Shown: in pieces, positions 18,232 to 24,022 of the stretch | Position numbering within the stretch: position 1 is the stretch's first letter | Layout: the number at the start of each line of letters is the position of its first letter | Virus record (IMG/VR): IMGVR_UViG_3300031539_000220 | Location: 1-29,339 of that record | Length of the DNA: 29,339 nt | Strand: one strand, 5' to 3' | Origin: a virus | Made by a program: the position numbers and the translations under genes | The notes under the pieces: model-generated | Seen by the model: only the letters and a program-made list of their open reading frames with translations | Databases searched by the model: none | Told to the model about the DNA's origin: nothing

Positions 18232-18391
18232 TTTTGTAAAATTCTTTTATTTCGTAATAGCAACTTTTGCAGTAGTGCCTGCCGTGATTTCCGCTTTTGC
18301 CGGGATGGACAAAGCCATATTTTTTCTGTGCTTGCATCCTGCATTTTTTGCCGAATGCCCCGGCGCATTTTGTTGGTGTGTATTTTTTCAT
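18221..18391 (-). CDS. Small Cys/His-rich basic protein (56 aa)
   Basis: This 56-residue protein starts MKKYTPTKCAGAFGKKCRMQ and ends YCKSCYYEIKEFYKNEQ. It shows C...C and CKSC with His residues between, suggesting a small zinc knuckle, and an excess of Lys. It has an ATGA overlap with the stop of the helicase-loader gene and an 11-base overlap with the next gene. The tight coupling and sensible composition support a real gene. Confidence 0.72.
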   Translation of the reverse strand: MKKYTPTKCAGAFGKKCRMQAQKKYGFVHPGKSGNHGRHYCKSCYYEIKEFYKNEQ

Positions 18392-19089
18392 TTTTCGATT
18401 TTGACGATAGTTGAGAAGTCACGAATGCGGCGAAGGATGGGTTGTCCTCGATCCTCCGAGAGCATTTTGGTGAGTTGCGCCCCTGTAGCGTTTGTGGTGA
18501 TTATTGTCGGCTTGAGATTGTTAGTACGATGCTCCAGTACGTCATAAAGTTCCACCTCTGCCCTCTCGGTCATCTTTTGTTTTCCGAGGTCATCGATGAG
18601 CAGGATTGATGTGCGGCGGCAACGCTCCATGGCCTCGATAGCCTGTCCCTTTTCCTCGGCATTGCTGTGCCATTGGTCTGCGGCGAATTTAGCGAACTCC
18701 GTTGCTGTCAACCCGTAGCAGGATCGACCATCTGCCGTCATGCGCTTGAGGATGTGCCAGCAGGCGCGAGTCTTGCCGCTCCCAGCGTATCCTTCAAGCA
18801 GGACTCCTGTTGGTCCGTACTGCCAGTTTTGAGCAATTGCGCTAAAAGCCCCGTAGATTCGATTTAAGTCAGTCTCCCGATAGAGAGGTGGGCAGATGGC
18901 ATCAAACGCAGTTTTAAGCCTGTTTCTGCGCTCGGAATCGGCAAGTCTGTTTTGTTCTCTGATGTGTTTTTGTTCACAAACCTCGCAAAGCAACTTGAAT
19001 TCAAGCGTCCTTCCGCAGGCTTCGATGACAGGCACTTCGACCACTTCAAAGCAGTCTTCGCCAGCACAAGGTTTTATTGTAGTTATCAT
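18388..19089 (-). CDS. DnaC/IstB-like AAA+ helicase loader
   Basis: This 233-residue AAA+ ATPase has Walker A GYAGSGKT at 100-107 and Walker B SILLIDDLGK with D166/D167. A sensor-1-like PTIITTNATG and a RIRDFST arginine-finger region follow. The N-terminus carries several Cys residues (C8, C13, C25, C35, C38) that could form a zinc site. The arrangement matches DnaC-type loaders that place the replicative helicase at the origin. The gene directly follows the DUF1376 replication-initiator gene, the order seen in lambda-like O and P modules. The start is ATG 19087-19089, 15 bases after the initiator stop. Confidence 0.88.
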   Translation of the reverse strand: MITTIKPCAGEDCFEVVEVPVIEACGRTLEFKLLCEVCEQKHIREQNRLADSERRNRLKTAFDAICPPLYRETDLNRIYGAFSAIAQNWQYGPTGVLLEGYAGSGKTRACWHILKRMTADGRSCYGLTATEFAKFAADQWHSNAEEKGQAIEAMERCRRTSILLIDDLGKQKMTERAEVELYDVLEHRTNNLKPTIITTNATGAQLTKMLSEDRGQPILRRIRDFSTIVKIEK

Positions 19090-19104: not shown

Positions 19105-19833
19105 TTACCAAGAGAAATCGTATTCCTTAGGGATTTCGTTTTGTTTCGGAGGTTCTGGAGGGAGTTCTGGTTGGCATCGGTTGAGCCAGCCGACGATGAA
19201 TTTGCGGGTCTTTCGGCGTTTGGGATTGTTGGCAAGCCAAGCATCCATATTGCGGAGTTCTTGGTCCACGTCAGTTGTCGGGTAGTGCCGTTTGATGTCA
19301 GTAAGCCAAGCGTCATCGACCTGCTTCTTTTCTTCTTTAACCTCATCATGCGATGGGATTCCCGCCGCATTGCCGCCGCCAACTGGCGGTAATATAGCGT
19401 TAGCTATATTATATATTGAAGATGAAGATTGAAGAGCATCGGTTTGGGATATCCCAACCTGTATCCCAGATTGATGCGGTGGGATATGCGGTGGGATATC
19501 TTTTTTGCTGTTTTCTGCGTTTTTCCATCGTTTTTCAGAATTCGCCTTCTGTTTAGCTCGATATTCGTTTTGCTTAATTTTAACGTCTTCTAACTTTTTA
19601 TTGCGAAGTTTCCCATCTTCGCATATGCCAAATTTATCCCAAATTGATCCCATGGCATTCCCATCGCATCCTGCAAGGCGCGAAAGAACAACTCGGTCAT
19701 TTGGTAATCCATCATTGGTCCATTGGTAACAGAGCAGACGAATGTATGCCCCAGTCTCCTCGGCAGACAGCATTGCTGTTCCGACAAGGAAATCCTGCGG
19801 GTAGAATTGAAATGCGGGTGTATTAGATTTCAT
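19105..19833 (-). CDS. DUF1376-type replication initiator
   Basis: This 242-residue protein has an N-terminal PAFQFYPQDFLVGTAMLSAE, GAYIRLLCYQWTNDGLPND and a winged-helix-like LSRLAG pattern, the classic DUF1376 signature of phage replication-initiation proteins. Residues ~105-165 are a low-complexity linker (KKDIPPHIPPHQSG...). The C-terminal part (MDAWLANNPKRRKTRKFIVG) is a second small domain. The linker DNA holds an iteron and AT-rich hairpin region that may be the origin, as in lambda O. It would bind that origin and pass the helicase through the DnaC-like loader encoded next. Confidence 0.85.
   Translation of the reverse strand: MKSNTPAFQFYPQDFLVGTAMLSAEETGAYIRLLCYQWTNDGLPNDRVVLSRLAGCDGNAMGSIWDKFGICEDGKLRNKKLEDVKIKQNEYRAKQKANSEKRWKNAENSKKDIPPHIPPHQSGIQVGISQTDALQSSSSIYNIANAILPPVGGGNAAGIPSHDEVKEEKKQVDDAWLTDIKRHYPTTDVDQELRNMDAWLANNPKRRKTRKFIVGWLNRCQPELPPEPPKQNEIPKEYDFSW
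19376..19499 (-). other. Candidate origin of replication inside the initiator gene
   Basis: The region contains five GGGATA/TATCCC units: GGGATATCCC palindrome 19446-19455, TATCCC 19462-19467, and GGGATAT at 19481 and 19493. Next to them is an AT-rich segment with a perfect 9-bp hairpin (TAATATAGC, 4-nt loop, GCTATATTA; 19390-19411) and a CCGCC-AACT-GGCGG hairpin (19376-19389). Iterons plus an AT-rich unwinding element within the linker-coding part of an initiator gene is the lambda-O layout. It is sequence-based inference only. Confidence 0.5.
19476..19499 (-). repeat. Tandem 12-bp direct repeat (iteron-like)
   Basis: GCGGTGGGATAT occurs twice in perfect tandem (19476-19487 and 19488-19499), encoding the PPHIPPH motif of the initiator linker. 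The unit contains the GGGATAT word found elsewhere nearby. Confidence 0.8.
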
Positions 19834-23242: not shown

Positions 23243-24022
23243 TCAGTTGAGCAGGTACTGCTCCGACAAATTCCAGAGTTGCTTGTTGATCTTGAAGTCG
23301 GTTGTCGGTGCGGTGACTCGGCGAATGCCAGAACCGGGGCGACCTTTGACGAGGTTCTCTTGAACACGATTGAAGGTGTGCCAGAGGTTCGTTCCAGAGT
23401 CGTTGTATCGGCGAGCGCGATTCAGGTAGAACAGGCGAGTGTTCCACTCGTAGATATCTTTTCGTTCGGAATCCTCGGTAGGTTCGTCGTAGCGAAGCTT
23501 GAGCGCATCGACCAGATACTGCTTCTGTGCCGCCTCGGTGAGTTCCTTGTTCTTGAACGCATGAACACGCTCGGAAAGGAAAGGGACATTGTCGCGCAGG
23601 CGAGTTGCCGCTTGAATGAAGTCCGATACATCAACTCTACGATGGTGAATCTTGATCGTCTCAAAGATGTCTCCACCGACGAGTCCGTTGAGGCAGGCGA
23701 AGACTTGCAAGCCAACGGAGAGTTGAGCGGAGCTAGTTCCATCATGCGAGTTGATCAACACAAACTCTGGTGATGCCTCGCCAGCAATCGTGATGTTGTC
23801 GCGATGACCGAAACGGATCAAGTGCTTTTGAAATCCCTTATTCTCGTCCTTCCTCGCTTTGGCGAGTTGGATTTGACGAGGGATGTAGCCGTTCTCCTCG
23901 AAAGAGGAAACGATCTGCTGGGTGCTGATGAATCCGTAGCGTTCGCTGCGGGTGGATGAAGCATGGGTAGCCTCGATGGGGTTAGTGTTCACGATTTCGA
24001 GTGATGGGATGATGATGTTCAT
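23243..24022 (-). CDS. DUF932-like protein
   Basis: This 259-residue protein has ERYGFISTQQIVSSFEENGY, then QLAKARKDENKGFQKHLIRF, GEASPEFVLINSHDGTSSAQ and a later helical region (AAQKQYLVDALKLRYDEPTE). This matches the DUF932/DUF945-type family of phage and plasmid proteins; similarity is from memory of the pattern, not a search. The role is unproven; related genes occur in anti-restriction or early accessory regions. The start at 24022 follows AAAACCAAAAAA, with tandem hairpins just upstream. Confidence 0.7.
   Translation of the reverse strand: MNIIIPSLEIVNTNPIEATHASSTRSERYGFISTQQIVSSFEENGYIPRQIQLAKARKDENKGFQKHLIRFGHRDNITIAGEASPEFVLINSHDGTSSAQLSVGLQVFACLNGLVGGDIFETIKIHHRRVDVSDFIQAATRLRDNVPFLSERVHAFKNKELTEAAQKQYLVDALKLRYDEPTEDSERKDIYEWNTRLFYLNRARRYNDSGTNLWHTFNRVQENLVKGRPGSGIRRVTAPTTDFKINKQLWNLSEQYLLN

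Follow-up and report, generated by a model that had tools for sequence, protein, structure and literature searches.

The window analysed here, a phage record taken at its whole length of 29,339 bases, carries a putative replication initiator gene of the DUF1376 family on the minus strand (19105–19833, 242 aa). Its product matches the Pfam profile PF07120 (DUF1376) with an E value of 2.1e-9 and 38.1 bits, above the curated cut-off of 30.1, and a PHROG family annotated as 'primosomal protein' with an E value of 6.5e-15. Downstream, after a gap of 15 bp, follows a gene for a DnaC-like helicase loader (18388–19089, minus strand), the product of which is recognized by the AAA+ loader profile phrog_50 (E 1.1e-24) and by IstB_IS21 (E 5.8e-9), in agreement with the adjacent loader proposed in the first-pass annotation. 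Upstream of the initiator gene lie exonuclease and RecT-like genes. Elsewhere in the window, a DUF932 protein (Pfam E 1.1e-31) is encoded near the recombination genes at 23243–24022, and an open-ended gene with collagen-like Gly-X-Y repeats at 2–550 probably encodes a fibre protein.

In the AlphaFold model of the initiator, the N-domain is a confidently predicted winged helix that includes a long helix; a disordered linker connects it to a C-domain of three helices. The DUF1376 winged helix extends over residues ~8–112, the linker over residues ~113–170 and the C-terminal helical domain over residues ~174–220; the linker is the part encoded by the origin-like DNA described below. Officially, no function is assigned to DUF1376, and our literature search returned no title or abstract on what it does. 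A Foldseek search with the whole model gave no significant match. When the N-domain was compared by VIA-align, the RepA_N-type plasmid initiators 4pql, 4pt7 and 5kbj scored Z values of 4.4–4.6, a weak match level with that of generic winged helices; the likeness consists of a winged-helix initiator domain, with no sequence relation shown. In RepA_N plasmids, the origin lies within repA.

The DNA encoding the linker is marked by a cluster of short repeats. The word GGGATA/TATCCC starts at 19446, 19450, 19462, 19481, 19493 and 19635, and the word search thus recovered in place all the copies described earlier, including the remote TATCCC. Extended to the heptamer TGGGATA, the word occurs six times in the 29,339 bp, all six inside the DUF1376 gene and five of them within 54 bp, at 19445 (+), 19450 (−), 19462 (−), 19480 (+) and 19492 (+), with the copy at 19635 (−) standing apart. 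The totals for the whole window are unremarkable (6 TGGGATA versus 1.8 expected, 11 GGGATA versus 7.2), and it is the clustering that stands out. Two overlapping half-sites, 19445–19451 (+) and 19450–19456 (−), form the palindromic pair TTGGGATATCCCAA at 19444–19457, and a single half-site follows at 19462–19468 (−). The 12-bp tandem repeat ATGCGGTGGGAT is as perfect as had been claimed, with copies on the plus strand at 19474–19485 and 19486–19497 that include TGGGATA at 19480–19486 and 19492–19498. This tandem repeat is only a part of the set of TGGGATA half-sites to which the palindrome also belongs. The outlying copy at 19635–19641 (−) lies in the part coding for the N-domain. Together with TGGCATA at 19624 and TGGGAT near 19647, it makes up a second small cluster (19620–19660), which is kept in relatives and may be driven by the conserved peptide W-D-K-F-G-I-C.

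The linker was compared with a recoding null, in which codons were resampled while the protein and the codon usage of the gene were kept. Five or more copies of TGGGATA appeared in the linker in 1 of 20,000 synonymous recodings, any 7-mer reached five copies or more in 2 of 20,000, and an inverted repeat of at least 9 bp was present in 8 of 3,000. With in-frame direct repeats ignored, no other 180-bp stretch of the 29 kb is as rich in repeats as the linker, which holds 23 pairs versus 17 in the next region. Both the repeats and the hairpin beside them are therefore real and go beyond chance.

Comparison with relatives of the window (L002, L003, L007, L008 and those of the L004 type) offers a further level of detail, as the words recur there in different frames and on both strands; a scan of genome contigs with the alignment returned no relatives. 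The stretch GGGATATCCC is present in L002, L003 and L007 and lies in a different frame in L004/L008; one clade translates it as G-I-S-Q, the other as R-D-I-P. Most copies in the L004/L008 clade are TGGCATA/TATGCCA; the two half-sites of the palindrome are among them (TTGGGATATCCCAA to TTGGCATATGCCAA), with a Ser-to-Cys change in the protein, and the linker of G002 holds seven clustered copies of TGGCATA. Since the words shift frame, occupy both strands and change in concert along with amino-acid changes, the selected unit is the DNA. Sites that change in concert while the protein sequence changes too behave like the targets of a DNA-binding protein that co-evolves with them. Conservation of the repeats in relatives, the check that the first-pass annotation had called for, is thus found at the DNA level, across frames and with coordinated changes.

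These observations bear on the notion that the repetition in the DNA simply reflects repeated I/M-P-x-H units in the protein, or slippage within a disordered linker. Linkers do tolerate expansion, and the units IPPHIPPH and MPSHMPSH are in-frame tandem repeats. However, the excess persists without in-frame direct repeats and after codon resampling, the words also occur inverted and off-frame, they change in concert across copies, and the hairpin covaries (see below). We consider this explanation highly improbable; in its strict form, with protein repeats as the only cause, it was rejected on account of the off-frame and inverted copies.

For a broader comparison, 80 loci were fetched and 57 distinct DUF1376 genes were tested, counting only off-frame direct or inverted 7-mer pairs, i.e., those not explicable by a protein repeat. 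The linkers of the 57 genes hold on average 16.8 such pairs versus 3.2 expected, and the excess is significant (p < 0.05) in the linker of 75% of the genes, compared with 23% for the N-terminal and 5% for the C-terminal part. In a model-free scan of 180-bp stretches, the linker, which amounts to 2.4% of positions, ranks first in its locus for repeat density in 32 of 57 cases and among the top three in 42; the same scan recovers the annotated lambda iterons in lambda O. Ranked over whole records, the linker comes first in G003 (a complete 63-kb genome with a 127-bp direct terminal repeat; 35 versus 16 for the next region) and in G002, second after the contig end in G001, and only fifth in the more distant G005. 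The repeat words vary by family, among them TGGGATA, TGGCATA, CCACCCTTG, AACCGCG and CCATGGC. The rule is not universal, because some DUF1376 genes (e.g., L031, L062, L089 and those of phages AH02 and Cd) have no significant linker repeats. Directly downstream, a DnaC-like gene is present in 26 of 55 loci and a DnaB-like ORF, identified by eye from the sequences, in about 13 more.

Next to the iterons of the window lies an AT-rich, strand-asymmetric tract (19412–19436), purine-rich on the plus strand and TCTTCATCTTCA-like on the coding strand. Its best 30-bp window reaches 80% AT, a moderate richness equalled by about 1% of all windows of that size in the 29 kb. Over 56 families, mean AT content rises by 8–10% at the 3′ end of the iterons, matching the place of this tract, which is hence a candidate unwinding region. 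The linker site is not singled out by GC skew: the minimum of the window, a fragment record, lies near 14.5 kb, and the circular skew minimum of G003, 4.0 kb from the linker (p ~ 0.13), is uninformative because all G003 genes are on one strand.

On the far side of this tract sits the AT-rich hairpin TAATATAGC-GTTA-GCTATATTA (19390–19411), an inverted repeat with z values of −3.7 and −4.7 on the two strands. Its arms (19390–19398 and 19403–19411) are complementary at nine of nine positions around a GTTA loop, which bears out the 9-bp stem of the first-pass annotation. In the relatives, the letters of the stem differ while pairing is kept, with TAATATAGC/GCTATATTA in the window and ACAATAGC/GCTATTGT in the L004 type. 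Between L003 and L007, a G-C pair is replaced by T-A in a double change, by which two alanines become Ser and Asp. In a larger group with the same loader family, the hairpin reads TACTTCTAC-TAAA-GTAGAAGTA, TACTTCTTC-TAA[AC]-GAAGAAGTA or TACTACTTC-TAAA-GAAGTAGTA. These hairpins were gathered by a peptide pattern, with pairing not being a criterion, and full pairing was found in 42 of 42 gene copies (some contigs having been fetched twice). Across the stem of this group, the codon for Thr always faces that for Val, and Ser faces Glu. The loops of L014–L073 are nearly always TAAA or TAAC (also TGAC, TTAC and TATC), and the closing C-G pair is invariant.

Among ten distinct hairpins, 92% of cells are paired, with 24 double changes and 0 one-sided ones. 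Their covariation score of 0.657 compares with 0.18 for shuffled and at most 0.25 for slid alignments, most of the types having first been noticed via a search for the best inverted repeat. The hairpin is hence a separate conserved element under selection at the DNA level, and not merely AT-rich DNA. The exact hairpin word was rejected as a diagnostic, as a search of the whole collection returned 33 stretches, of which only the 3 in the known relatives lie in DUF1376 genes.

Covariation of a stem in a transcribed coding region would also be displayed by an RNA element of the initiator mRNA, acting on translation or stability independently of an iteron origin. Nevertheless, no G-U pair occurs among the paired cells of the ten hairpins, although RNA stems usually tolerate them, and this absence leans toward a DNA element. 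A search of Rfam gave no match. The hairpin moreover adjoins the iterons near the AT peak, and sequence inspection of lambda O revealed an imperfect palindrome, ATTCGTCAGA...TCTGGCGAAT, likewise after its AT-rich tract. We therefore regard the RNA element as rather unlikely, though less so than the protein-repeat explanation above.

In the initiators that precede the same loader family, at least six N-domain types, four of them belonging to DUF1376, occur on shared C-domains, and the module breakpoints fall after the repeats, so that N-domain and repeats are exchanged as a module. A group of such N-domain swaps upstream of the loader (L163, L166, L172, L175, L178, L180 and L182) includes types beginning MRWLNIEIANL and MPNRVLREG. 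E. coli phage 673R7 and the metagenomic locus L172 both combine N-domain type F with the iteron TGTAACGCT; their N-domains are identical at 64 of 110 residues, and their C-domains are unrelated. A test of repeat vocabulary over all pairs did not separate dependence on the N-domain from that on the C-domain (Spearman 0.23 vs 0.20), and the view that repeats follow the N-domain accordingly builds on such specific pairs and on the module breakpoints. The window-type hairpin is found with two different sets of N-domain and iterons, those of the window/L002 and of L038/L054.

It is possible, though we would not favor it over its opposite, that the site consists of two separately inherited parts. 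The iterons would be exchanged with the N-domain, while the strictly Watson-Crick 9-bp hairpin, with its 4-nt loop of the TAAA/TAAC type, would stay with the C-domain and loader side. It might act there as a DNA structure, such as a helicase-loading, primase or dyad site, and dictate the amino-acid covariation of the linker (Thr/Val and Ser/Glu in one group).

The layout closely resembles that of phage lambda, where the origin consists of iterons and an AT-rich tract in the middle of gene O (PMC7466680). In the O protein, the N-domain binds the iterons, the C-domain binds the loader, and a flexible linker connects the two (PMC6022878). Both systems have multiple iterons where the initiator gene encodes its linker, with an AT-rich tract adjoining them and a loader gene directly downstream; modular exchange of the N-domain and the proposed division of labour between N- and C-domain are likewise alike. 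The differences are also clear. The N-domain of the window protein is DUF1376 instead of the Phage_rep_O domain (PF04492) of lambda, the loader is a DnaC-like AAA+ protein unlike lambda P, the half-sites measure 7 bp versus 18 bp for the lambda iterons, the coding strand is pyrimidine-rich rather than purine-rich, and a compact perfect hairpin is present. The PF04492 profile has no match in the window protein or in YdaU of the E. coli Rac prophage, DUF1376 being the sole hit in both.

YdaU is thus a DUF1376 protein, and its neighbour YdaV is DnaC-like, in the same order as in the window. In the ydaU linker, copies of TGTTCAAACA in either orientation precede an AT-rich stretch, although the iteron word and the C-domain differ from those of the window. 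The Rac prophage has an active origin, oriJ (PMC3945230). The C-domain of YdaU recurs at 39–87% identity in the O proteins of Gifsy-1, mEpX1 and 673R7, which also precede a DnaC-like gene (47% for Gifsy-1 and 81% for 673R7 over 124 residues). The N-domains of the Gifsy-1 and mEpX1 proteins match PF04492, and that of 673R7 is a third type without a Pfam match; the Gifsy-1 gene contains dense ATCCCCG/CTATCCC repeats. Since YdaU and the Gifsy-1 and mEpX1 proteins share their C-domain, DUF1376 occupies exactly the place of the DNA-binding domain of lambda O.

Since dozens of related phages and the Rac prophage share this layout but differ in their repeat words, ~19390–19500 is very probably a lambda-type replication origin inside the initiator gene, with the DUF1376 domain as its winged-helix DNA binder. 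The lambda O/P arrangement suggested in the first-pass annotation gains support from the DNA-level conservation of the repeats and from the hairpin covariation. Binding, melting, loading and the start of replication at this site are steps that we infer. The winged-helix N-domain would bind the TGGGATA iterons, probably as dimers on the dyads, and a nucleoprotein complex would form, upon which the adjoining AT-rich tract may melt. The C-terminal domain would recruit the DnaC-like loader, which in turn would deliver the host DnaB helicase. In the hairpin, the origin might possess a second conserved DNA element, e.g., a dyad site or a structure in the melted strand.

The same repeats could instead be operators, bound by the DUF1376 protein or a repressor within its own gene for control of transcription, with replication starting elsewhere. 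Iteron-type initiators often autoregulate, the 673R7 gene is immediately preceded by two copies of its word, and our data speak for predicted binding sites rather than for replication as such. Yet the repeats of the window lie only inside the gene, with none at a promoter, and operators would not account for the AT-rich tract, the hairpin and the neighbouring loader or helicase gene. A proven origin is known from lambda O (PMC7466680), which is laid out alike and whose domain is exchangeable. We consider operators unlikely, and an origin the better explanation of the site.

Although this kind of origin is itself known, a lambda-type intragenic origin is new for this family, which is not described as such in the literature searched. 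The sequence comparisons turn DUF1376 into a predicted origin-binding domain, exchangeable for that of lambda O. The origin and its recognition word become predictable from sequence alone in many uncultured phages, the pairs of initiator and iteron amount to a library of specificities provided by nature, and a new element worth testing is the hairpin. A testable example is harbored by E. coli K-12 in the form of Rac ydaU-ydaV. In phage 673R7 (L223:1022–1456), GCGTTAC/GTAACGC is found not only in the linker but also just upstream of the initiator gene (1022 and 1034) and in the N-domain part (1202–1226), and these extra copies suggest autoregulation or a second binding cluster.
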